Below, piece by piece: positions 2,762 through 51,111 of a DNA stretch of 64,000 nucleotides (the first letter of the stretch is position 1; each line of letters starts with the position of its first letter). Position numbers and translations under genes: made by a program. The DNA comes from Spirosoma panaciterrae DSM 21099 (GTDB taxonomy: Bacteria; Bacteroidota; Bacteroidia; Cytophagales; Spirosomataceae): the NCBI RefSeq assembly GCF_000374025.1, contig NZ_KB893176.1:62001-126000 (forward strand), in the 5' to 3' direction. The notes beneath the pieces are model-generated. The model saw only the letters and a program-made list of their open reading frames with translations. It had not been told where the DNA came from and searched no databases.

Positions 2762-4309
2762 CTACCCTTTGGTAGCTTCCCGAATGGCGCGTCCGGCGGC
2801 TGCCAGGTCTTCCAGATCCATTTCGGAATATTTACGTGATAAAATCACCCCATCGGCTCCCCCTTTGTAGGCGGCTGCGGTGGCGGCATACGCATCCTCG
2901 GGTGACCCTTTGCGGCTCGTTTTCTTGGTCGGAATACCCACATCGATACCAGGCAGGATTTTACACTGGCCTTTGACCCCCGCAATGGCACGCTGGGTTT
3001 CGCGCATCACATAATCGGGCGATAAACCGGCGGTGGGCAACTCATCGATGGATGCTTCATTGCCGTAGTTCAGCAGATGGTTGTTGAATCGCATCAATTC
3101 TTCCAGCGGCACATCGCGGAAAATGGTCGACTGAATGTTGCGGATAAAGTTGGCGTAACGTTCGCCACCACAGTTGTTGTAGGCCACTATTTTCAGGAAA
3201 TCAGCTTTTTTCGCCAGTTCTTCGTAGCTGCGGCTGGCCCGGAAAAACGGATTGAACGAATTGACGTGCTCGACGTGAAAACCAACCTGCAGGTCTTTCT
3301 TCACGCCTTTCACGGCATCGTACACGTCGCCCAACACCTGATGCTTGCCCATGTCGAACAGTTTATCCCAGGCGACGATTTCGGGGTAGTGCAACATCAG
3401 TCGGTTGAACTCGACATAGTAGCCATCGCTCGGGCGTTCGCCTTTCATCGATAATTTAATAAACTGATCGAGCTTGTGATAGCCTTCCTTCGCCCGTTCG
3501 TAACTGATGCCGAGCTTTTTGGCTTCGCGCTGGTGGTGTTCACAAAAGCAGGTCGTCCGGGTCGAGTCGATGGTTTGAAAATGGCTGGCTCCCAACGCAT
3601 TGAGCAGTGGCCCATTCCGCTCGTTGAAAAACAGCACCCCATCGATATCGTAGGACTTGCTGATGTCAGTCACCAGCCCCGTCCAGAAGGCCCGCACGTT
3701 GGGATTGAACAGGCAAAGCGTATTGGCCTGACGCCCCATCAGATCGATTTCCGAACACTCCTTAACCCCCGGCACATCGGCCCGCCACTGATCTTCGACC
3801 GACGCAAACACTTTCATGCCCCGTTTTTTAGCCGCCGGAATCACCGATGCCAGAATATCGAAGTTGCCATGTTCGGTGGCTCGGGTGTTTTTCAACACGG
3901 TATTCTTATAATATTCAGGGTGCGGTATCGCATAATTACCCCCGTGGAATGTTTTCTCATCTGACACCTGCGAGCCATGCGCCGGAAACGGTTCGCCCGG
4001 CAATTGCCGTCCGGCCAGTCCGCGCCCATACGTGAATACGGTCAGGAATAGTGTATTGATGGCTCCCTGTTTCTGTACAATGTCCAGCACTTTATCGACG
4101 CCCTCATCGACAAACGAAACGGCCCCGATCTGAATGCCATGCATCATGGCGTCAGCCGCTTTTTTAGGTTCTGAGAGGCCCAACGAACTCAGGTCGGTTA
4201 GTGGCGCGGCAGCCATGAGCGCGCTGATCCGGGCGCTGTTCTTAATGAATTCCCGTCGTGAACTGTCGGTCGGTTGCATCGATTTTTCGGAATCGGTATG
4301 TTGGTTCAT
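2762..4309 (-). CDS. TIM-barrel glycosyl-hydrolase-like protein with Tat signal
   Basis: 515 residues. The N-terminus carries a twin-arginine signal (SRREFIKNSARISALMAAA, about residues 17-35), so the protein should be folded in the cytoplasm and exported. The body parallels the downstream paralogue: GIQIGAVSFVDEGVDK, GVLFFNERNGPLLNALG, CFCEHHQREAKKLGI, FHVEHVNSFNPFFRASRS and GADGVILSRKYSEMD. Acidic residues in the NERNGP and VEH segments are candidates for catalysis by analogy with TIM-barrel hydrolases, but this is not proven. It lies 51 nt after the SusD gene and is part of that operon. Periplasmic processing of the ligand bound by SusCD is the simplest reading. It may equally be an isomerase or lyase. 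Confidence 0.6.
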   Translation of the reverse strand: MNQHTDSEKSMQPTDSSRREFIKNSARISALMAAAPLTDLSSLGLSEPKKAADAMMHGIQIGAVSFVDEGVDKVLDIVQKQGAINTLFLTVFTYGRGLAGRQLPGEPFPAHGSQVSDEKTFHGGNYAIPHPEYYKNTVLKNTRATEHGNFDILASVIPAAKKRGMKVFASVEDQWRADVPGVKECSEIDLMGRQANTLCLFNPNVRAFWTGLVTDISKSYDIDGVLFFNERNGPLLNALGASHFQTIDSTRTTCFCEHHQREAKKLGISYERAKEGYHKLDQFIKLSMKGERPSDGYYVEFNRLMLHYPEIVAWDKLFDMGKHQVLGDVYDAVKGVKKDLQVGFHVEHVNSFNPFFRASRSYEELAKKADFLKIVAYNNCGGERYANFIRNIQSTIFRDVPLEELMRFNNHLLNYGNEASIDELPTAGLSPDYVMRETQRAIAGVKGQCKILPGIDVGIPTKKTSRKGSPEDAYAATAAAYKGGADGVILSRKYSEMDLEDLAAAGRAIREATKG

Positions 4310-4359
4310 GCGTTGTGTATGTAAAGTCCTATTTTTGGTAAAAAGTCTGGATTCTGGTC

Positions 4360-5802
4360 TTAATTATACCCTGGATTCTGCGGCAGAACAGTTGGGTCGT
4401 TGATGATCTGGATCTGGGTCAGCGGCAGCGGAAAAACGGTCATATTCTCTTTCATCCCCAGTTTTTGGAGTGTCGCCAGCGCCCGACCCGTGCGAACAAG
4501 GTCAAACCAGCGATGGCCTTCGAGCGTCAGCTCAAAGCGTCTTTCCAGGTAAATTTTTTCGCGGGCCTCATCTTTGGTCAGGCCAGTGTAGCCCGGCAGG
4601 CCCACCCGTTGCCGAACCTGATTCAGATAGGGCAGCGCCTGAGCCGTTTTGCCGTTTTCATTCATGGCTTCGGCCAGCATCAGCAGCACATCGGCATAGC
4701 GAATCACCTTCCAGTTCGCCTTACTATCGCTCGGAATGGCCGAGGGAGCTATGTATTTGGTCGTGAATGACTTGGAGGCCTGTACCGACTGCGATGGAAT
4801 CGGAATAAAGGTTCCGTTGACGGTTATGCCGTAGTTGACCGTCACGGCCCGCCGGGGATCGGCAGGATCGAAAGCTTTGAAGAGAGTTTCGGTTGGCGAG
4901 CCCGAGTTGCCGGGGGTTCCCGACGCAAAGCCGTAGTAGTCCATAATGACTTTGGCAAACGGAAAAAACTGAAGCGGGAAGCCACTGCCTTCGTTGATGC
5001 CTTCTTCATATTCGACATCGAAAATGTATTCGCTGTGGTGTTCATTTTTCGAGTAGTCGAACAGGTCTTTGTAGTTGGGCAGCAAGGCATATTTCATGGT
5101 TGTTACCTGCAACAGCTTTGCTTCGGCATTGACAAAATCTTTCCGGGTCAGGTACACCCTTCCCAACAGCGATGCAGCGGCCCCTTTGGTCGGTCGGCCC
5201 ACATCGGCACCACTGTACGAAGCAGGCAATTTCGATTCGGCATCGAGCAGGTCTTTGATAATGACCTCGTCATAAATCTTCGCGACTTTTTCCCGGCCCG
5301 TTTTATAGGTATCTTCTACGGTTATGGGCGTCGTTACCATCGGCACATCGCCAAAAATTCGGACCAGATCGAAGTAGGCCAGTGCCCGCAGAAATTTAGC
5401 CTCGCCGATATGCCGATTTTTATTCACCACGACGGTAGGGTCGGTCGGTTCAATCTTGGCTAACAGGATATTAGCCCGATAAATCATCCGGTAATAATTC
5501 TGCCAGCTATTGCCGATAATGGCTAACCGGCTGTTGGCGTTGAACTGATCGATGGAGACGTTTTCGGCCTGGTTGGGAATCTCTTCGGCAATATCTTCTC
5601 CCGGCAGATCGCCAAATTTCCAGAAGTTCTGATACTGGGTTTGTAGGGTGTTATAGGCGGCCGTTATGGCATCCTGAAAGTCCTTATCCGTTTTATACAC
5701 CCCGTCGATACTCACGGTAGACTTGGGCAGAATTTCAATAAATTCCTTGCGGCAGGATACGATCAGCAAGGAGCCGATCAGTAAATACACGAATGTTTTC
5801 AT
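4360..5802 (-). CDS. SusD/RagB-family nutrient-binding outer-membrane lipoprotein
   Basis: 480-residue surface lipoprotein that caps the SusC channel and binds the ligand. A signal peptide with lipobox LLIVSC puts the lipid-modified cysteine near residue 17. The family features are an N-terminal helical bundle (TDKDFQDAITAAYNTLQ), TPR-like helices (IGEAKFLRALAYFDLVRIFGD is diagnostic) and the C-terminal SusD pattern KVIRYADVLLMLAEAMNE, followed by LERRFELTLEGHRWFDLVRTG. It follows SusC after 23 nt, the standard order. Ligand identity cannot be read from the sequence. Confidence 0.95.
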   Translation of the reverse strand: MKTFVYLLIGSLLIVSCRKEFIEILPKSTVSIDGVYKTDKDFQDAITAAYNTLQTQYQNFWKFGDLPGEDIAEEIPNQAENVSIDQFNANSRLAIIGNSWQNYYRMIYRANILLAKIEPTDPTVVVNKNRHIGEAKFLRALAYFDLVRIFGDVPMVTTPITVEDTYKTGREKVAKIYDEVIIKDLLDAESKLPASYSGADVGRPTKGAAASLLGRVYLTRKDFVNAEAKLLQVTTMKYALLPNYKDLFDYSKNEHHSEYIFDVEYEEGINEGSGFPLQFFPFAKVIMDYYGFASGTPGNSGSPTETLFKAFDPADPRRAVTVNYGITVNGTFIPIPSQSVQASKSFTTKYIAPSAIPSDSKANWKVIRYADVLLMLAEAMNENGKTAQALPYLNQVRQRVGLPGYTGLTKDEAREKIYLERRFELTLEGHRWFDLVRTGRALATLQKLGMKENMTVFPLPLTQIQIINDPTVLPQNPGYN

Positions 5803-5825: not shown

Positions 5826-8800
5826 TTAGAAACCGAGGTTTATGCCCAGTACAAGGCTCTTGGTCAGGGGATAGTTGTTCTGGTCCACACCGGGCGTCAG
5901 TGGGTTATCGCTGTTGCTCACATCGGGGTTGAAGGCTTCATTCCTGGTGAAAAGGAACGGATTGGTAGCCGTTGCATACAGCCGAAGCGACCCCAGCGAG
6001 AGTTTTTGCAGAAGAGCCGAAGGGACCTGATAGCTCAGCGAGATGTTGTTGATGCGCAGATAGGTACCTTCATCCAGATAGCGCGAATTCCAGGGGTCCC
6101 GGTTATTGCCCGTTGGCGCATCGTTCGGGCGAGGCACCTGCCCATCGCCGGAGTTCTGTTCCGATTTCCAGTAGGCATTGGACGACGCTAACTGCCGTAC
6201 CCGCCCCCGCGTATTCAGGGTACCCAACCTTGATACGCTCAGCACCTTATTACCAACCACTCCTTGCAGACTAACGCTCAGACTCAGGTTTTTATAGGAA
6301 AAGCGGTTGGTCATACCATAGAAGAAATCTGGATAAGGCGACCCCATAATGGTCTGATCGTAGCCGTCGATGATACCGTCGGGTTTGCCATCGGGACCGC
6401 TGATATCTACGAACCGGGTATCGCCAACCCGTGAGGCAATGGTTGAGCCAGGTCGGTAGATCGGCCCTTTGGCCAGCTCAGCCGCATTTTTAAACACCCC
6501 GTCAGTGATCCAGCCGTAAAACATTCCGATAGGCTGACCAATCATGGTGACGTTTCCGCCCGAATAAATCGGATCGCCCTGCGGGCCCAGCTTGACCACT
6601 TCGTTTTTATAGGTCGAGATGTTGAAATCGGTTGTCCAGCTAAACTTTCCATCGACATTGACCGTGTTCAGTACAAACTCCCAGCCACTATTTTTCACTT
6701 CACCGATGTTTTGCAGGGCTGTACTGAAACCCGTCAGGTCGGAGATATTTACGTTCAGCAGCAAATCGGTATTCCGGGAACGGAAGTGATCGATGGTCAG
6801 GTTTACCCGGCTCTTCAACACCGACAGATCGATACCAAAGTTTACCTGCTGCTGCTTTTCCCAGGTCAGATTCGGATTGGGCAACCGACCGGGTGCAAAC
6901 CCACCCACCGAGGCCCCGCCATACGTGTATTTTTCGTAGCTGAGGGTGGCATACTGGTCAAAGTTCCCAATGTTATTGTTCCCGGTTTTGCCATAGCTGG
7001 TCCGCAGTTTCAGCTCCGAAACGAACGGAACATTTTTCAGAAAGGCTTCGTCCGACAACCGCCAGGCCAGAGCCGCCGATGGGAAGACCCCGTACTTGTT
7101 TTCCGACCCAAAGCGCGACGAGCCATCGGTCCGAATGGAAGCGGTGACGTAGTATTTACTTTTGTAATTGTAGTTGACCCGCGCCAGATACGAGATCAGC
7201 GACCACTGGTATGAATCGGACGAGCCGTTGGTTATCTGCCCACTAACGGCACTCAGATTAGGCACCAGGTTGTTCGGGTATTTATTACTGGTCAGGAAAT
7301 TCGACTCGTAATTCTCTTTCTGCGCCGTAAAGCCCCCCAGCGCCATAATGTTATGCGAACCAATCGACTTCGTATAGTTCAGCGTGTATTCCGTCAGCCA
7401 GTTGGTGAGCATGGACGAGTTATCCGTACCGACGGCCGGTTCATTAAAAAAGGCCGGTAGCTGCGGTTTGAAGTTCATTCCTCGCCCACTCATCAGGTTC
7501 CCGCCAATCATCACATTGAACTTCAGATCGTCCAGGATTTTATACTCGGCGTTGATGTTCCCCAACAGACGCATACTTTTCTGGTTCGCTTTCACTTCAT
7601 TGGCCAGCGCCAGTGGATTGGTCAGGTTCGATGAACCCGCCAGGCCGCTAAACACGAAGTAATCGCCCGTTGGAGTCCGCAATGGGAAAAAGGAATTTGC
7701 CATCACGGCCTGCGCAATAATGCCATCGTTTGGCCCCGTTCCGGCACCAGCCGCCAGTACGTTGTTCGATTCGGTAAAGGAGGGGTTCAGGTTAAATTTT
7801 ACGGAGAGTCGTTTCGAAAACTGGGCATCGATATTGGCCCGAACCGAATACCGATTGAAGCCGCTGTTGATGATAATCCCTTCCTGATTGAAATATTCGC
7901 CACTCAGCGCATACTTCACGTTTTCGTTGCCACCCGTTGCCGTCAGTTGGTACTGGTGCTGGGGAGCCGTCCGCAACACTTCATCCAGCGCATCGACATC
8001 GTAGGTATTTCGTCCTTCCAGCACATCGATCACTTCGGGCGGTACCTGCCGAAACCAGGTGGAATACGGCCCCGATACATCTCTGCCTTCGTCGATATTC
8101 CGGTTTCGGATGCCGTCGTAGTAGTACTGCGCCTGTTCTTTAGCATTCATGAATTTAGGCCGTTTGGCAATCTTCTGCCAGCCCGTATAGGCATCAAACG
8201 AAAACCTGGCTTTACCGGATTTGCCCCGTTTCGTATTGATGATGATCACCCCGTTGGACCCCCGCGAGCCATAAATAGCCGTAGCCGACGCATCCTTCAG
8301 AATGTCCATGCTTTCGATATCATTCGGGTTCAGCGTCTGGATATTATCAGTTGGAAACCCATCGACTACGTACAGCGGTCCAACCCCCGCCGAGATACTG
8401 CCAACGCCCCGAATGCGGATCTGCGGAGCCGCGCCCGGTTCGCCCGATACGGGTTTCACCTGAACCCCCGCCACTTTGCCCAATAACGCCTGATCGACAC
8501 GCGAAACCGGCTGTTCACGAATCTGCTCGACCCCAACAGCGGCCACCGATCCGGTTAGATCTTTCTTCTTCACGGTACCATACCCAACCACCACCACTTC
8601 ATCAAGCGATTTATTGTCGGGAGCCAATTGAACGTCGACGGTGGCGCGATTGCCAATGGCCACTTCCTGATTCAGATAGCCGACAAAAGAGAATACCAGC
8701 GTAGTGGTTTCGTCCGGCACATTGAGCCTGAATTTCCCATCGGCATCTGTATTGGTGCCGCGCGTGCTGTTCTTCACCACGACACTCACGCCCGGTAGGC

Positions 8801-43185: not shown

Positions 43186-43653
43186 TTACTTCGACCACAG
43201 TCGAGGGTCAATAACTAGAGGCTTCTCGTCAATCACCCGTATTGATGTATAGCTATTGTGGGCCGGGTGCAATAAATAGTTGATGCCATCAGGCATCACC
43301 GAGGAAGGTACGCCTAAGGCTAACACATCTGGCTTTGCTAGCCAATCGGCCGCAATGTGCTGACTCCGATTGTAGGTGTTTTCCTGCCAATATGGAGGGA
43401 GTTGAGCAGCCTTCAACAATCGCTGACTGTTAGGCGGAAGTTCCAGACTGAACAATCGATAGGCCGGTAGCTCATCGTACGGCACTTGAGGCATGTGTAC
43501 TAAGATTTCCACCAAAGCAAGAGCGGGATGTTCTGCCGTATAGAGGATACCAACACCCGGCGGATTCCACCGGCCTCCATTGAGCCAGGTACCAGTAACA
43601 TCTAGGGGCTGGGCGGCATACTTCTGACGCACTACTCGATAAACAATGGCCAT
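43186..43653 (-). CDS. RES-domain toxin
   Basis: 155 residues matching the RES family: VYRVVRQKYAAQPLDVTGTWL, GGRWNPPGVGILYTAEHPALA, LVEILVHMP, and a C-terminal VIDEKPLVIDPRLWS. RES toxins, such as those studied in Mycobacterium and Pseudomonas, are ADP-ribosyltransferase-fold enzymes that deplete NAD+. Conserved Arg (YRVVR), Tyr (LYTAEH) and Glu (LVEIL) positions are present, which suggests an active toxin. Its start lies 3 nt after the antitoxin stop, in the standard antitoxin-toxin order. Confidence 0.9.
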   Translation of the reverse strand: MAIVYRVVRQKYAAQPLDVTGTWLNGGRWNPPGVGILYTAEHPALALVEILVHMPQVPYDELPAYRLFSLELPPNSQRLLKAAQLPPYWQENTYNRSQHIAADWLAKPDVLALGVPSSVMPDGINYLLHPAHNSYTSIRVIDEKPLVIDPRLWSK

Positions 43654-43656
43654 ATC

Positions 43657-44085
43657 TTATCCGAAGATGCCATAGTCAATACGGCCCAGTACCCGATCTA
43701 CTAAGGTATAGCCTGTAACGGTGTCAAGTATCTGGAGGGGCGTTTGATAGTCTAGCTCCCGTAAGGGGGAACGCATCCAGTTGAGGGCTGTTGAAGCTCG
43801 CCCTTCAAAAGTATCTAACATATGTAGCAGTAAGTTCTCTAGCAGCAGTAGTCGCTCGGAGGCATCTTGACTGATGCGTTGATCGACTTTCAACCGATGG
43901 AGATAAGAGGCTGATAAGCCTAAAGCCATGGCCAATTCTTTGTCGGTTAAGCCAACCAGTCTTGCTACGCGGTCAGCTTCCGCTCGTAGTACACCTTGTC
44001 GACTGCGGGCAATGATCTCCTGTTCAGTCATGAGCCGGGGTAACAAGGCTTGATTAGGCGGTAAAAAAGGCAAAGTGATAGCCAT
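43657..44085 (-). CDS. Xre/MbcA/ParS-type antitoxin (DUF2384)
   Basis: 142 residues from the ATG at 44085 (MAITLPFLPPNQALL); a GTG six codons upstream is possible. An Xre-like helix-turn-helix is visible (LVGLTDKELAMALGLSASYL). The C-terminal DUF2384 toxin-binding part contains ALNWMRSPLRELDYQTPLQI, then LDTVTGYTLVDRVLGRIDYG, the hallmark of RES-linked antitoxins. It should neutralise the RES toxin and repress the operon. An IS630 element starts 65 nt upstream of its start and may supply or disrupt the promoter. Confidence 0.9.
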   Translation of the reverse strand: MAITLPFLPPNQALLPRLMTEQEIIARSRQGVLRAEADRVARLVGLTDKELAMALGLSASYLHRLKVDQRISQDASERLLLLENLLLHMLDTFEGRASTALNWMRSPLRELDYQTPLQILDTVTGYTLVDRVLGRIDYGIFG

Positions 44086-44193
44086 AGGAATGAATTTTGT
44101 CACTAAGCTAACTACAAAAGTTCATCCAATTAAGTTCTTACAAACTTATATTGATCCGTGAGTAGGCCCGTAAAGCTATATCCTTTTATTTGT

Positions 44194-44682
44194 ATGGCTA
44201 CCCTCAAACCATCCGATTATGAATTGCTGCGCCGACGATGTGCGGAACTGAAAGAGAATGGTTGGCAACAAAACAGGATTGCTCAGGCATTGGGTTTGAC
44301 CGAAGGGTGGGTTAGTCGCACGTTAAAGAAATACCGTCAAGACGGACAAGCTGGCTTAGTTTGGCATAAACCAAATGGGCCAGCCTGCCGGCTGACTAAC
44401 GAACAGGTCGCTATACTGCTTGAGGAATTAAATAAAGGTGCTGTAGCCCAAGGATTTGCCGGTGATATATGGACCCGACCCCGAGTCAATCAAGTTATTA
44501 ATCGGCTGTTTGGGGTGAACTATGATCCCTCACAGATTGGTCGGTTGTTGAAACGGGCAGGCTGGAGTCGTCAGAATCGGAGCGCCGAAGCGACCACAGG
44601 CCAAAGCTCGTCAACAGGATGCTGCGGCCGTCCACAATGGCGTGAAGAGCGTTTACCAGGCCTCAAAAAAAGCTCAGGCTGA
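44194..44682 (+). CDS. IS630 transposase, N-terminal frame (OrfA)
   Basis: 162 residues from the ATG at 44194 (MATLKPSDYELLRRRC). It holds the DNA-binding part: two helix-turn-helix segments (WQQNRIAQALGLTEGWVSRTL and WTRPRVNQVINRLFGVNYDPS). Near the end the frame reads WREERLPGLKK and meets a seven-A run at 44665-44671 before its stop. A -1 slip on that run would join it to the catalytic frame as ...LKKKAQAEGRGLVYIDES, which matches the family well. The stretch between about 44570 and 44640 reads more family-like in another frame, so mutation cannot be excluded. Confidence 0.8.
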   Translation: MATLKPSDYELLRRRCAELKENGWQQNRIAQALGLTEGWVSRTLKKYRQDGQAGLVWHKPNGPACRLTNEQVAILLEELNKGAVAQGFAGDIWTRPRVNQVINRLFGVNYDPSQIGRLLKRAGWSRQNRSAEATTGQSSSTGCCGRPQWREERLPGLKKSSG

Positions 44683-45217
44683 AGGGCGGGGACTTGTTTA
44701 TATTGATGAGTCAGCGTGTTATCTATTACCCTTGGTAGCCCATACGTGGGCAAAAAAGGGAGAAACGCCAGTTTTAGTTGAGCAGGCTGGTCGAGATCAC
44801 TTAAGCTTGATTGCGGCCATTGCCCCGAATGGGCGGCTATATGTAGGTGGGCAAGACCGCCCTTTCCGCAGTGAGGATGTGATCTGGTTTTTGGAGAGGT
44901 TATGTAGCCGCTATCGCAAACGGAATTTGTTGGTGGTTTGGGATGGAGCAGCTATTCATCGTAGTCAGGCTATTAAAGACTGGTTGAGCCGCAAGGCGGG
45001 GCGGGTGCATTTGGAACGGTTACCTGCTTATAGTCCTGAACTCAACCCGGTGGAGTTGTTCTGGAGCCACCTGAAAAGAAAGCTGAAAAATCAAGTCTTC
45101 GTCAACTTTGAGCAGTTACTAAATGCGATTCTATATCAGCTTGACCAGTTACAAGTCAGCCCTAAACTAATTACAGCCTTCTTTCGCAAAAAGGAAATTG
45201 CTTTCTTTACAGACTAA
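44642..45217 (+). CDS. IS630 transposase, catalytic DDE frame (OrfB)
   Basis: Frame of 191 codons that would normally be reached by frameshifting from OrfA. The DDE residues are in GLVYIDESACYL (first Asp), LLVVWDGAAIHRS (second Asp) and YSPELNPVELFWSHLKRKLKN (Glu), all with the spacing of IS630 transposases. It ends 12 nt before the right end of the element. No independent ribosome binding site is apparent. Confidence 0.85.
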   Translation: MKSVYQASKKAQAEGRGLVYIDESACYLLPLVAHTWAKKGETPVLVEQAGRDHLSLIAAIAPNGRLYVGGQDRPFRSEDVIWFLERLCSRYRKRNLLVVWDGAAIHRSQAIKDWLSRKAGRVHLERLPAYSPELNPVELFWSHLKRKLKNQVFVNFEQLLNAILYQLDQLQVSPKLITAFFRKKEIAFFTD

Positions 45218-45411
45218 TTCACGGGTCAATAATAGCAATAGCGCAGCAACAGGTAGATTTTGCTAAACAGTTTGACTTTCCAACTTTGCCCCCTTTAAAG
45301 AAAGGGATGGCTCTAGAAAGAATGCAACCAACTGACGATCAATCGCATCTTCGTAAAAATAATAGATGTCGGTACGTACTTTTAAGGCCGCTTATCGGGC
45401 CATGTAGTTTT

Positions 45412-45978
45412 ATGTTATTTGGTTATGCACGTGTTTCAACACAGGATCAAAACTTAGCCCTTCAATTGGATGACCTGAAAAAAGCAGGTTGTCAGAAGAT
45501 ATTTCAGGAAAAGGTGTCTTCAGCTAAGGTACGTCCACAACTTCAGAAGATGCTGGAGGTCCTTCGCGAAGGAGACACCGTCATGGTTTGGAAACTGGAT
45601 CGATTAGGGCGATCCTTAAAAGAGCTTTTCACCTTGATTAATGACTTTCAAAGCAAAGGGATTGGTTTCTGTAGTTTGAATGATGCCATTGATACCACTA
45701 CCGCACAGGGTCGTTTAGTATTCAACCTGTTTGCTTCATTAGCTGAATTTGAAAGAGATTTAATTCGCGAGCGTACCAAAGCTGGTTTGGCCGCAGCCAA
45801 GGCTAGGGGACGAATAGGCGGCCGTCCGAAAGGACTCTCTACCGAAGCCCAATCAAAGGCACGGGCCGTTAAATCCATGTACACGCTTAAAACCCATACG
45901 ATTTTGGAGATCGGTCAGTTGTTTCATTTAAGCCGAGCGACAGTTTACCGGTACTTGGCGTGGAAGGATGTGAAATAA
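45412..45978 (+). CDS. Serine recombinase, resolvase/invertase family
   Basis: 188 residues from the ATG at 45412 (MLFGYARVSTQDQNLALQLD). The catalytic serine lies in YARVST, with the arginines and helix E pattern in VWKLDRLGRSLKELFTLIND and ASLAEFERDLIRERTKAGL. A C-terminal Hin-type helix-turn-helix reads HTILEIGQLFHLSRATVYRYL. The size fits a small resolvase or DNA invertase from a Tn3-like transposon or plasmid. No Tn3 transposase or clear res site was found, although the 180 nt upstream are non-coding. It lies just outside the right end of the IS630 element. Confidence 0.9.
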   Translation: MLFGYARVSTQDQNLALQLDDLKKAGCQKIFQEKVSSAKVRPQLQKMLEVLREGDTVMVWKLDRLGRSLKELFTLINDFQSKGIGFCSLNDAIDTTTAQGRLVFNLFASLAEFERDLIRERTKAGLAAAKARGRIGGRPKGLSTEAQSKARAVKSMYTLKTHTILEIGQLFHLSRATVYRYLAWKDVK

Positions 45979-46823: not shown

Positions 46824-47690
46824 ATGGCTCTCTTAAATGTATTCAGGCAGGCTTATCCGCTACAATCGTATCGTCTCTCGTTGTATCGGGATTTGTTTTT
46901 TGCGTTCTTTCTGAGTTTGTTTTTGCTCGTGTTCCGGCCGTTCGGACTCGAGGTTTATTCGTACGAAGAAAGCTACGTTATGATCGGGTATGGGGCCATA
47001 ACGCTACTGACTACCGTACTCAATGACTACCTGGGTTACCAGCATTTTCCAGCCTTTTTTCGGGAAACGAATTGGACGGTAGGTAAACAACTGGCCTGGT
47101 CGGGTTGGCAGTTGATTTGCCTCGGACTAACCTGCTTCGTTTATGCAGCTCTCATCAAGGCGTTTCCGTGGACGTTGCTTGGCTTTTTGAAAGTACAGCT
47201 CTATGTTCTGCTCTGCGCCATTGTTCCGATTAGCTTATTTACGTTGCTTCGCCAGAACTACATGCTGAAGCGAAATAGTCGGGAAGCCAACCAACTGGAA
47301 GTCGATCTGTCGCAGCAAGTTCCGCAACCTAATGAAACTGTAGAGCAGGCTATCTGTTTTACGGGCGAGAACCGGAATGAAAAACTTGAGATGCTGCCCA
47401 GCCAGTTGATCTGTATTTCGGCTCAGGACAATTATGTCGAGTTTGTTTTTTTGCAGGCAGGCCATACGAAACGGGCTTTGCTCCGCAATACACTATCGAA
47501 AATTGACGAGCAACTCAATGGCCACTCCCAGTTTTTCCGGTGCCACCGATCTTATCTCATCAATCTGGAGAAAATACGGATGGTGAAAGGGAACGCTCAG
47601 GGGTATGTATTAAAAATGGAAGAATTCGAGCCACTGATTCCAGTATCGCGGGCGAGGGGACAGGCCTTACATCAGGCCATTCAGGCCTAA
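46824..47690 (+). CDS. Membrane-bound LytTR transcriptional regulator
   Basis: 288 residues. Four hydrophobic segments occupy about residues 20-140 (LFFAFFLSLFLLVFRPFGL, VMIGYGAITLLTTVLNDYL, WSGWQLICLGLTCFVYAAL, VQLYVLLCAIVPISLFTLL). A LytTR DNA-binding domain follows from about 190 (LICISAQDNYVEFVFLQAGH, FRCHRSYLINLEKIRMVKG). There is no receiver domain, so sensing would be through the membrane part. It lies 140 nt upstream of the acyltransferase/barrel fusion gene in the same direction and could regulate it. Confidence 0.88.
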   Translation: MALLNVFRQAYPLQSYRLSLYRDLFFAFFLSLFLLVFRPFGLEVYSYEESYVMIGYGAITLLTTVLNDYLGYQHFPAFFRETNWTVGKQLAWSGWQLICLGLTCFVYAALIKAFPWTLLGFLKVQLYVLLCAIVPISLFTLLRQNYMLKRNSREANQLEVDLSQQVPQPNETVEQAICFTGENRNEKLEMLPSQLICISAQDNYVEFVFLQAGHTKRALLRNTLSKIDEQLNGHSQFFRCHRSYLINLEKIRMVKGNAQGYVLKMEEFEPLIPVSRARGQALHQAIQA

Positions 47691-47830: not shown

Positions 47831-50347
47831 ATGCAAACCTATCGAAACCTCGGCTGGCTGGCTCTTTCGCTGGCTTGCCTGATCATCAGCCGCCAATGGC
47901 TACTTCCGATCTTCGCCTTATTGTCTCCCTTATTCTTACTGCACTTTTTACGCACCCAATCACCAGGCAGGGGACTGCTTTTAGTGGGTGTGGGGTTAGT
48001 TGCTTCCATCCTGTGGGTATATCGCGGATTAGCCGGGCCTATGTTCCATAGTCCAGCCAGTTTTGTCATTACCTTGAGTGTTTCGACGCTTATCGGTCTG
48101 ATCCCGTTTTGGCTGCACCGGTTGCTGTCGCACACTTTCCCATTACTAACAGCCTCCCTGATTTTTCCGGCCACGAAAACCATTCTTGAGTATGTAGGCT
48201 CGCTCAATAGTCCGTTTGGCGTTTGGGGTTCGCAGGCAGCTCTCTTTGCGGATTGGCTGCCGTTGGCACAGGTCGTGTCAGTAACCGGCATATGGGGATT
48301 GTCCTTTTTTCTGTCCTGGAGTATTTCGCTGGCAGCACTCGTGTGGTCACGTCCTAAGCAGAACGTGCAGTCTGCTCTGATTCCATACGCTTTGGTACTG
48401 GTGGTGATTGTCGGCTACGGATCAAGTCGACTACTACAGTCTGGTGAAAGCAAGTCCGCAAAAGTAGCCAGCATCCTCACCAATGATACGTATTTCAAGC
48501 CTCTCAAATCGTCCGTCTATCAAGATCTTGCCAATCCGTCTGTGCTGACCAGTTCAGTCGCTCAGGCCAATACGCGTTGGCTGTTAACTCAAACGGAACA
48601 GGCAGCTAAGGCAGGAGCCAAACTCATTTTCTGGGCGGAAGGCAACGGAATAATCCTGCCAGCACAGGAACCGGAACTCATTCGGGCAGCGGCCCAACTT
48701 GCCACCCGTTATCAGGCTTACCTAGGATTAGCCGTTGAGGTTATTCATTCGGGAGCGTCGTTTCCGGTCGAGAATAAGATCGTATTGCTTCAGCCAAACG
48801 GTCAGGTTGCCTTTACGTATTTGAAGCATTATCCCATCGGAATTGAGCAGGAGTTGATGCGAAAAGGTGACGGCAAGATTCCGGTTGCCCAAACGCCTTT
48901 CGGCAAACTTGCGGCCATGATCTGCTTCGATACCGACTTCATCGCCTACGCCCGCAAGGCAGGTCAGCTGGGCGTTCAACTTCTGGTCGCGCCGTCGAAT
49001 GACTGGGCCGAAATTGCCGACATGCGGGGGCTACTTACCCAGTTTAGAGCCCTGGAAAACGGACTTACGCTGATTCGATCTACCTCCCACGGCGTTACAG
49101 AAGTCGTTGATCCTTATGGGCGAGTTAAGCTCAGGAACAATTATTTTGAGCATCCGCAAACGATCTTATATGCCAACGCGCCCCTAAATGGCCAACCAAC
49201 TTTGTATGCCCGCTTTGGCGACTGGTTTCCGTGGTGTTGCGTAGTACTTATGCTGTGCATTGGCTTTAGCCGGATTCCGCGTCGTATTCATCAGGTCGGG
49301 TTACTTATCTTAATGCTGATCGTAACTACGGCTCAGGCCCAGCAGCGTACAGAGCCAACGGCTAAAACCGGTTTCCATAAAACGATTGTGTTACCAGCGC
49401 TATCTTATACCCCAGAAACCAGTGTGGCGCTGGGCGTGACGGGCGTACACCTGAGCAAGCCCGATAGTCTGGCCAACTTGTCGCAGGTTTCGGCTACGGC
49501 GCTGTACACATTTAAGAATCAATTTCTGGTGGAAGGCAAAACCCAGCTTTATCGTGGCAAGTATTTGCTGATGGGCAACGTGAATTACAGTCGCTACCCG
49601 GAGTACTTTTTTGGTATTGGCAACGAAACGCAGGCTGACAACAAAACGATCATTACCTACAGTGCTGTGCGGCTAAATGCGAATCTGGCCCGTCAACTCG
49701 CCCCTCATTTATACGGTGGACTGGCCGTTAACTACAGCCATTATTTCCATATCAATCAGCCGGAACGTTATTTGCCCGAGCCCTTCGGTCAGCAAGGAGG
49801 AGTCACCACGGGCCTCGGTTGGGCCATTACGTTCGATAGCCGGGATCACCTGCTGAATGCATACCGAGGGTGGTATGCCACTCTTTCGGCCATTTGGAAT
49901 ACGCAAGCTTTGGGTGGTCATTTCGATTACATCTCCATCGACGCCGATGTTCGTAAATTTGTGCCCGTAAACTCGGGAGGCACGCTAGCCTTCCAGGCCC
50001 TGGTGACGACTAAAAGCGGTGAGGTACCTTTCTTACAACTCGCCTATTTGGGTGGTAGCAGCATGATGCGTGGGTTTTATGCAGGTCGCTACCGCGACAA
50101 TAATCTGATGGCCATTCAGAGCGAATACCGTCGACGGCTTTCGGCTAAGTGGGGGTTTGTCCTTTTTGCGGGCACGGGTAAAGTATTCAACTCCTGGAAT
50201 CAAGCTGATTTGTCGGGGTTAAAAACATCCCTGGGTCTTGGCTTTCGACGGACCATCAGCCGAAAAGACCGGGTAAACCTGCGAATTGATGGCGGTTTGG
50301 GCGATGGGTATCCCAATTTCTACGTGAGTATCACTGAAGCGTTTTGA
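47831..50347 (+). CDS. Fusion of Lnt-like N-acyltransferase and outer-membrane beta-barrel
   Basis: 838 residues in one open frame. Residues 1-190 form five or six membrane helices like apolipoprotein N-acyltransferase (SPFGVWGSQAALFADWLPLAQ). Residues about 205-450 are a nitrilase/CN-hydrolase domain with the triad E270 (FWAEGNG), K332 (YLKHYPIG) and C365 (MICFDTDF). A hydrophobic stretch ending TTAQAQQ (about 487-505) looks like a signal peptide with a cleavage site after A503. The rest, about 515-838, is a BamA/Omp85-like surface-antigen barrel (GLGWAITFDSRDHLLNAYRGW, LGGSSMMRGFYAGRYRDNN, ending VSITEAF). The two halves belong to different membranes, so cleavage after translation is the likely solution. 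Confidence 0.85.
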   Translation: MQTYRNLGWLALSLACLIISRQWLLPIFALLSPLFLLHFLRTQSPGRGLLLVGVGLVASILWVYRGLAGPMFHSPASFVITLSVSTLIGLIPFWLHRLLSHTFPLLTASLIFPATKTILEYVGSLNSPFGVWGSQAALFADWLPLAQVVSVTGIWGLSFFLSWSISLAALVWSRPKQNVQSALIPYALVLVVIVGYGSSRLLQSGESKSAKVASILTNDTYFKPLKSSVYQDLANPSVLTSSVAQANTRWLLTQTEQAAKAGAKLIFWAEGNGIILPAQEPELIRAAAQLATRYQAYLGLAVEVIHSGASFPVENKIVLLQPNGQVAFTYLKHYPIGIEQELMRKGDGKIPVAQTPFGKLAAMICFDTDFIAYARKAGQLGVQLLVAPSNDWAEIADMRGLLTQFRALENGLTLIRSTSHGVTEVVDPYGRVKLRNNYFEHPQTILYANAPLNGQPTLYARFGDWFPWCCVVLMLCIGFSRIPRRIHQVGLLILMLIVTTAQAQQRTEPTAKTGFHKTIVLPALSYTPETSVALGVTGVHLSKPDSLANLSQVSATALYTFKNQFLVEGKTQLYRGKYLLMGNVNYSRYPEYFFGIGNETQADNKTIITYSAVRLNANLARQLAPHLYGGLAVNYSHYFHINQPERYLPEPFGQQGGVTTGLGWAITFDSRDHLLNAYRGWYATLSAIWNTQALGGHFDYISIDADVRKFVPVNSGGTLAFQALVTTKSGEVPFLQLAYLGGSSMMRGFYAGRYRDNNLMAIQSEYRRRLSAKWGFVLFAGTGKVFNSWNQADLSGLKTSLGLGFRRTISRKDRVNLRIDGGLGDGYPNFYVSITEAF

Positions 50348-51111
50348 TGGTCACGATCATGAAAAAGGTTATTAAAGCCCTGACCGGTTTCGCGATTCTG
50401 TTTTTACTCTATCATGCTGCCGAGTACATGATTGTGTTTCAAAACAGCGTCGAAGGCTTTCTGATGGGGCAAGGATTGTTTTTTGCTGTGGCCTATCAAC
50501 TCGCACGTTGTCAATCCCGCAAAGGTCTTTCGGCTTGGGGATTGGGATTTTCGGCCAATACGTTTCGTCTATTCTTGTCTGGTACAATGATGGGGATAGC
50601 CTTGTACGGCAGCAGTTGGCTACTCAATCTGGCGTTTGGATTCGAAATCGTTCAGAAAGTACCAGCTAGTTCAGTGCTGATACAAAAAGGGGGGCTCTTC
50701 ACATTTGGCGTCTTTTTTTCATCGTTATCGGAAGATATTCTGACGAGAGGGTACGTCTATTATCACTTGCAAGAAAAAGTAAGTTCTGTCGTCCTCGGGG
50801 TTATTTCGGCCATTATCTATTTGCTCAACCATATCTATAAATTGGGCAGTGGCCCCGAAGCCTGGCTGTACCTTTTTCCGCTAGGACTTTTATATGTAAT
50901 GCCGTTGATCATGACCGGAAATCTATGGTTCGCCGGAGCAATGCACTGGGTAGGAAACGTATTCTTCTATATGAGTCATGACTTAATCGATACGCAATCC
51001 GGCAGCAGTATATCCCCTAATTATATTTTTTGTGGGTATATTCTCTTTATCCAAGTGAGCTTCGTTGTGTTAAGGAATTGCACCAAGGCTGTGATAAACG
51101 GATCTACGTGA
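50347..51111 (+). CDS. CPBP-type intramembrane protease-like protein
   Basis: 254 residues if started at the ATG that overlaps the upstream stop (TGATG); a second ATG at 50359 gives MKKVIKALTGFAILF. About seven hydrophobic segments are present. Motifs of the CPBP/Abi family are SSLSEDILTRGYVYYHL (motif 1, with ED where EE is usual), IIYLLNHIYKLG and GAMHWVGNVFFY (the conserved His and Asn). Members are Rce1-like proteases or act in bacteriocin immunity. Overlap with the fusion gene implies co-translation and possibly a role in processing or protecting its product. Confidence 0.75.
   Translation: MVTIMKKVIKALTGFAILFLLYHAAEYMIVFQNSVEGFLMGQGLFFAVAYQLARCQSRKGLSAWGLGFSANTFRLFLSGTMMGIALYGSSWLLNLAFGFEIVQKVPASSVLIQKGGLFTFGVFFSSLSEDILTRGYVYYHLQEKVSSVVLGVISAIIYLLNHIYKLGSGPEAWLYLFPLGLLYVMPLIMTGNLWFAGAMHWVGNVFFYMSHDLIDTQSGSSISPNYIFCGYILFIQVSFVVLRNCTKAVINGST

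Follow-up and report, generated by a model that had tools for sequence, protein, structure and literature searches.

Gene organization of the locus

On its + strand, at positions 47831-50347, the window (the whole stretch of DNA analysed, 64 000 nucleotides) contains a single uninterrupted ATG-TGA frame of 838 codons, in which an Lnt-like membrane enzyme is followed by an Omp85-type barrel. The frame lies between genes for a LytTR regulator and a CPBP membrane protease; since the listed CPBP frame overlaps the stop codon of the fusion, the operon is tight. The features, with the evidence used for each, are as follows:

46824..47690, +: LytTR regulator upstream of the fusion (PF04397, 55.2 bits)
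47831..49279, +: Lnt-like half, residues 1-483, eight predicted transmembrane (TM) helices and a CN-hydrolase domain (PF00795; TIGR00546, below cut-off; model; Foldseek)
48638..48640, +: catalytic E270, invariant in 22 aligned Lnt-like sequences
48824..48826, +: catalytic K332, invariant in the same 22 sequences
48845..48847, +: E339, in the position of the fourth catalytic Glu typical of Lnt (E343 in E. coli), from sequence conservation
48923..48925, +: catalytic C365, invariant in the same 22 sequences
49223..49270, +: residues 465-480, TM8 of the enzyme half (model helix, hydropathy, alignment to stand-alone relatives at their C-terminal helix)
49280..49339, +: internal signal peptide, residues 484-503 (n-region RRIHQ, h-region VGLLILMLIV, c-region TTAQA; part of a separate helix, 484-505)
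49337..49342, +: predicted signal peptidase I site A503/Q504, with Gln at +1 (Q-rule, PMC5837995; stand-alone barrels)
49340..50344 (stop codon 50345-50347), +: Omp85-type 16-stranded barrel without POTRA, residues 504-838 (PF01103, model, Foldseek)
50344..51111, +: CPBP (Rce1-like) membrane protease, listed start overlapping the fusion stop (PF02517, 48.5 bits)

The frame had been described in the initial annotation as running without interruption from an Lnt half into a barrel, and this description stands: there are no internal stops, and the two Pfam domains CN_hydrolase (PF00795, residues 244-441, 69.6 bits for a cut-off of 23.2) and Omp85 (PF01103, residues 580-806, 56.1 bits for a cut-off of 24) are both above threshold. 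LNT_N, at residues 23-163, scored 26.0 bits, slightly under its cut-off of 27.1. A search of the organism's own genome, a draft of 8.1 Mb in 72 contigs, retrieved the fused gene whole, with zero internal stops, well inside the 220-kb contig C5.

The same LytTR-barrel-CPBP cassette, devoid of the Lnt half, is present in a genome from another genus of the same family (G118). Identities with the window are 43% for LytTR, 47% for the barrel and 41% for CPBP, and the two barrels are sisters in the barrel tree (99/96). The Lnt-like gene was either inserted between the LytTR and barrel genes in the lineage of the window, or lost in G118.

The Lnt-like half

The two halves were modelled separately, as the initial annotation had advised, and both gave confident folds. 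The Lnt part (residues 1-510, modelled from an alignment of 22 sequences) reached a pLDDT of 88.0, with helices at 2-19, 25-42, 45-71, 75-100, 105-126, 154-173 and 180-202, then the nitrilase domain, and finally helices 465-480 and 484-505. This is the layout of Lnt, where eight TM helices are present and the nitrilase domain separates TM7 from TM8, and the best 24 PDB matches found by Foldseek were all Lnt structures (E-values of 4e-23 to 3e-17). The E270-K332-C365 triad, initially reported as intact, is indeed correctly placed, and was found in 22 of 22 Lnt-like sequences. E339 is invariant in 8 sequences and kept in at least 90% of the 22 aligned ones; its equivalence to E. coli E343 is by position after the Lys rather than by direct alignment to E. 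coli Lnt. As presented in the part of PMC5500890 consulted, E343 is highly conserved in Lnt and not in the nitrilase superfamily. Provided that E339 corresponds to it, this would favour acyl transfer rather than hydrolysis of an amide. Judging from the fold, the triad and E339, the probable activity of the Lnt-like half is acyl transfer to an amine that does not belong to the housekeeping lipoproteins.

It shares with Lnt (TIGR00546; PDB 5n6h and 8aq2) the membrane and nitrilase-fold layout, the E-K-C triad and, by position, the fourth Glu, but it has C365-F-D where Lnt has C387-Y388-E389 (in the corresponding section of PMC5500890). It also remains under the TIGR00546 equivalog cut-off of 132.9, with 109.3 bits for the half and 104 for the complete protein; three stand-alone relatives scored alongside the half (L061, L069 and L076) fall under it too. 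By contrast with the window half, a frame on contig C18 of the same genome passes this cut-off (187.2 bits) and is the probable housekeeping Lnt. On these sequence grounds, the barrel-fused enzyme is a paralogue.

The barrel half

The barrel (residues 504-838, modelled from an alignment of 32 sequences; pLDDT 86.9) has 16 strands, the first starting at residue 12 of the mature part, and no POTRA domain; its best Foldseek matches were BamA and TamA. It scored 75.3 bits with the subfamily model NF047779, i.e. under the cut-off of 200. Once cut from the enzyme, such a barrel without N-terminal extension would resemble the 'noNterm' subfamily of Omp85 proteins as characterized in the relevant section of PMC4104836, where a role of POTRA-less barrels in assisting membrane-protein biogenesis is suggested; the difference is that in the window an inner-membrane enzyme precedes the barrel in the gene. 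At least five further barrel relatives exist in the same genome, in frames of 376-435 aa, on contigs C67, C2 (two), C11 and C3 (L002, L004-L007).

The joint between the two halves

It was initially proposed that one helix serves both as the C-terminal anchor of Lnt and as the export signal of the barrel. The model shows two, TM8 (465-480) and a separate helix (484-505), and the Lnt homology ends accordingly: most aligned stand-alone Lnt-like proteins stop shortly beyond TM8, as a rule in a basic tail. In the alignment, the internal signal peptide of the fusion coincides in position with the one carried by stand-alone barrels. The good signal peptidase I site announced before Q504, in the TTAQA-QQ stretch (residues 499-505), was found to be an A.A/Q motif preceded by an n-region and an h-region; Gln at +1 is the norm for signal peptidase I substrates in Bacteroidetes, according to the part of PMC5837995 that sets out the Q-rule, and the organism probably belongs to this phylum, judging from its relatives and from the initial annotation. 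By hand count, A/Q lies 22 residues before a conserved YTPET motif in the window and in three stand-alone barrels (L010, L011 and L014); the spacing is 21 residues for L057, whereas L021 and L024 have about 31. Many of the 31 stand-alone barrel rows have no clear A/Q site.

How often such a pattern occurs was estimated from 426 distinct, mechanically called proteins from 117 sources, a set enriched for the Lnt-like and barrel families rather than a whole proteome. A basic residue before and A.AQ after the hydrophobic segment were found for 3 of 870 internal segments and 13 of 349 N-terminal ones. Two of the three internal cases are the fusion of the window and a second fusion presented below (G324), and the third lies in an unrelated frame of 610 aa (L093). 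The A.AQ pattern at the fusion joints is more than chance.

When orientation is deduced by counting model helices, the chain would be outside after the seventh helix, inside after TM8 and outside again after the signal peptide. The initial annotation held that a single polypeptide could occupy both membranes only if it were cleaved or spanned the periplasm. The first branch fits what we see, cleavage being likely; the second is superfluous, because TM8 would return the chain to the cytoplasm and the signal peptide would re-export it. The idea of a processed polyprotein is likewise supported as likely by the presence of the internal signal peptide, from which we infer cleavage. That the chain stays uncut, leaving the barrel tethered to the inner membrane or the protein spanning the periplasm, is scarcely credible: the open frame itself speaks for it and nothing further, but a good A.A/Q site is available and the 11 residues from Q504 to the first modelled strand are judged too short to cross the periplasm.

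Distribution of the fusion

Altogether, 40 places with Lnt-like genes were found (12 + 12 + 1 + 2 + 13, the Lnt on C18 being excluded and the two pieces of G324, on its contig C282 and in its fused frame, being counted as one), and only two of them are fused: the window gene and the contig-truncated gene of G324. The other Lnt-like frames are 201-632 aa long. A relative of the window barrel was found beside a stand-alone Lnt-like gene in none of the 25 loci (8 + 16 + 1) whose available flanks were compared, all of them outside the 13 places found last. Among the barrel matches listed, from searches that scored at most four (one search) or at most two (the other) candidates per genome, those other than the window are in frames of 537 aa at most. 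The scans at the level of the order and the class covered samples of 390 and 345 genomes, respectively, which overlap, and the whole fusion was found in no other genome among those searched. A 528-aa barrel frame in G437 is not read as a fusion, since the barrel appears to start by itself inside a longer frame. Among the matches listed from open-licence papers, no title or abstract opening reports a fusion of this type.

With two fused genes in 40 places, a conserved polyprotein family has to be rejected, and with it the expectation of a conserved fusion carrying a conserved AQA site: the whole fusion is seen in its own genome only, among those searched, and the signal segment of G324, apparently of independent origin, ends ALAQ. 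The situation envisaged initially as fatal, namely relatives in which the halves are always separate genes, is nearly what was encountered; it argues against conservation of the fusion and leaves its existence untouched.

Rarity invites suspicion of an artefact. Indeed, the genome is a draft in 72 contigs, the fusion is whole in no other genome searched, and both alternative frames hold stops at the joint, so that one wrong base would be enough, in principle, to hide two separate genes. But nothing points to such an error: inspection by eye of 49264-49350, which includes the region 49300-49340 singled out for checking in the initial annotation, revealed no homopolymer of 4 or more, the gene sits well inside its contig, and the Lnt homology, through TM8 and the basic tail, shares one frame with the barrel signal peptide that follows. 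We consider an assembly or base-calling error very unlikely. The fusion could also be recent and neutral or failing, with a product of which one half is non-functional. Its occurrence as a whole gene in one genome among those searched would agree with this, as would the long end branch of the Lnt half in the Lnt tree (1.45, for a median of 0.42). However, the triad, E339, the barrel strands and the C-terminal Phe are all retained over 838 codons without a stop, and this explanation is, in our opinion, highly improbable.

Concerning the stand-alone Lnt-like genes, a regulator gene adjoins them in 13 of the 15 loci with gene order listed (L061-L063, L066, L067, L069, L077, L091-L095 and L110). 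Nine of these regulators have a cyclic-nucleotide-binding (Crp-like) domain and four are of the AraC type; 12 are just upstream on the same strand and one (L061) just downstream. At L065, the single neighbour tested is a glycosyltransferase. Judged by these adjoining regulators, the family has the appearance of an accessory enzyme under inducible control, as far as gene context can tell. Two Lnt-like genes, L068 (G213, 3528-5076) and L090 (G311, 6827-7378), are apparently broken or shortened, so that certain genomes may be able to do without the accessory paralogue.

A second case and the question of internal initiation

G324 belongs to another family of the same order. One of its contigs starts within a CN-hydrolase domain, and the same frame continues into a barrel; another, C282, carries an Lnt N-terminal part that runs off the contig end and is probably the remainder of the same fused gene. 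A pair formed by a histidine kinase and a LytTR response regulator lies in divergent orientation to this N-terminal part. Since the assembly is 72% complete and fragmented into about 770 contigs, this is the weaker of the two cases. TM8 is absent from the fused frame, so the topology of a polyprotein would be wrong and internal initiation is likelier. The signal peptide starts at the ATG of the barrel, and this ATG shares bases with a +1-frame TGA (ATGA), which closes an alternative frame with a basic-tailed end; in our reading, a deletion has joined two genes that were coupled. Unless its own ATG were used, the barrel would be misplaced, and therefore not every such fusion works as a polyprotein.

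Could the barrel of the window also be made separately, from the internal ATG at 49250 (M474), with a signal peptide of 30 residues, the long frame then representing overlapping genes of which the first lost its stop? M474 is just upstream of the basic tail and the h-region, and the example of G324 shows an internal ATG placed as in coupled genes. But in the window the Lnt frame has no stop before the barrel, the other two frames contain stops without the basic-tailed ending seen in G324, and no ribosome-binding site was recognized by eye before the ATG, although this is a weak test in Bacteroidota. Such internal initiation seems unlikely.

As for the number of origins, the barrel of G324 groups with that of G193 (95/89) and not with the window barrel, on a long branch (2.14), and the placement of long-branch rows such as this one is unsure. 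The starred branches of the barrel tree force two changes, by which a single origin is disfavoured and two separate origins, as read from these sequences, are favoured. The Lnt tree, having no starred placement for the window or G324, is silent on this point.

Interpretation

The fusion of the window is real and rare, and well explained by a retained internal signal peptide. We propose, with a probability of about 0.7, a lineage-specific in-frame fusion of two genes within a LytTR-barrel-CPBP operon, giving a polyprotein that would be cut by signal peptidase I; cleavage, topology and localization are inferred. Eight helices would enter the inner membrane and leave the CN-hydrolase domain on the periplasmic side. 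After return to the cytoplasmic side through TM8, the basic tail and the signal peptide would direct the chain outwards again, and signal peptidase I would cut at A503/Q504. The Lnt-like enzyme would then remain in the inner membrane, with the short helix still attached, and the freed barrel of 335 residues would proceed to the outer membrane.

A similar arrangement is that of FbcH, the cytochrome b/c1 precursor of Bradyrhizobium, where a polytopic inner-membrane protein and a partner bearing a signal peptide are made as one chain, which is cut; the partner there is a cytochrome anchored in the inner membrane, and here an outer-membrane barrel. Other Omp85 proteins, such as PlpD, also have an enzyme domain and a barrel in one gene, but, following the account of PlpD in PMC4104836, its patatin domain is exported and carried across the outer membrane, whereas the window gene begins with an eight-TM inner-membrane enzyme and its signal peptide is internal. 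By description, the AatD protein of the Aat system is comparable in being a dedicated Lnt homologue outside the lipoprotein pathway and paired with an outer-membrane protein (sections of PMC7943197 on AatD). The differences are that AatA is TolC-like and the window barrel Omp85, and that those sections of PMC7943197 describe no fusion.

It is tempting to go further and imagine a self-processing two-membrane module, supplying an N-acyltransferase and its partner barrel in a fixed ratio, which would act jointly to acylate a dedicated substrate and to export or display it, as an Omp85 counterpart of AatD/AatA, or in which the enzyme would acylate the freed N-terminus of the barrel. We regard this as quite unlikely. 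A functional link between the halves is hinted at by the fact that these two families were joined twice, apparently independently, in the window and in G324; this repeated pairing points to a possible connection of accessory Lnt paralogues with POTRA-less Omp85 barrels, two groups whose function is uncertain. Acylation in cis of Q504 is possible, but two points speak against it: AatD, the known acyltransferase of a signal peptidase I-cleaved protein, acylates an N-terminal Gly and needs it (same sections of PMC7943197), whereas the freed barrel would start with Gln, and in Bacteroidetes a Gln in this position is as a rule cyclised (part of PMC5837995 devoted to this residue).

The locus looks like two known parts joined by a rare gene fusion and not like machinery of a new type; it is truly odd, but only locally so. 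It indicates how the gene of an inner-membrane enzyme can become fused to that of an outer-membrane barrel and avoid a topological clash, provided that the barrel keeps its signal peptide, and it constitutes a natural test of internal signal-peptide cleavage.

Transposase and resolvase genes upstream of the operon

Transposase and resolvase genes are located 0.8-2.7 kb upstream of the LytTR gene. Two overlapping frames, 44158-44682 (HTH) and 44642-45217 (DDE_3), look from their Pfam matches like one transposase split by a change of frame, possibly a programmed one; we take this element to be of the IS630 type. A resolvase-type recombinase (45286-45978) lies beside it, about 0.8 kb upstream of LytTR, which suggests a mobile stretch. 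On the other side of the transposase, an antitoxin of the Xre/MbcA/ParS type is encoded on the - strand (43657-44103), followed by a 155-aa frame (43186-43653) that is possibly its toxin partner.
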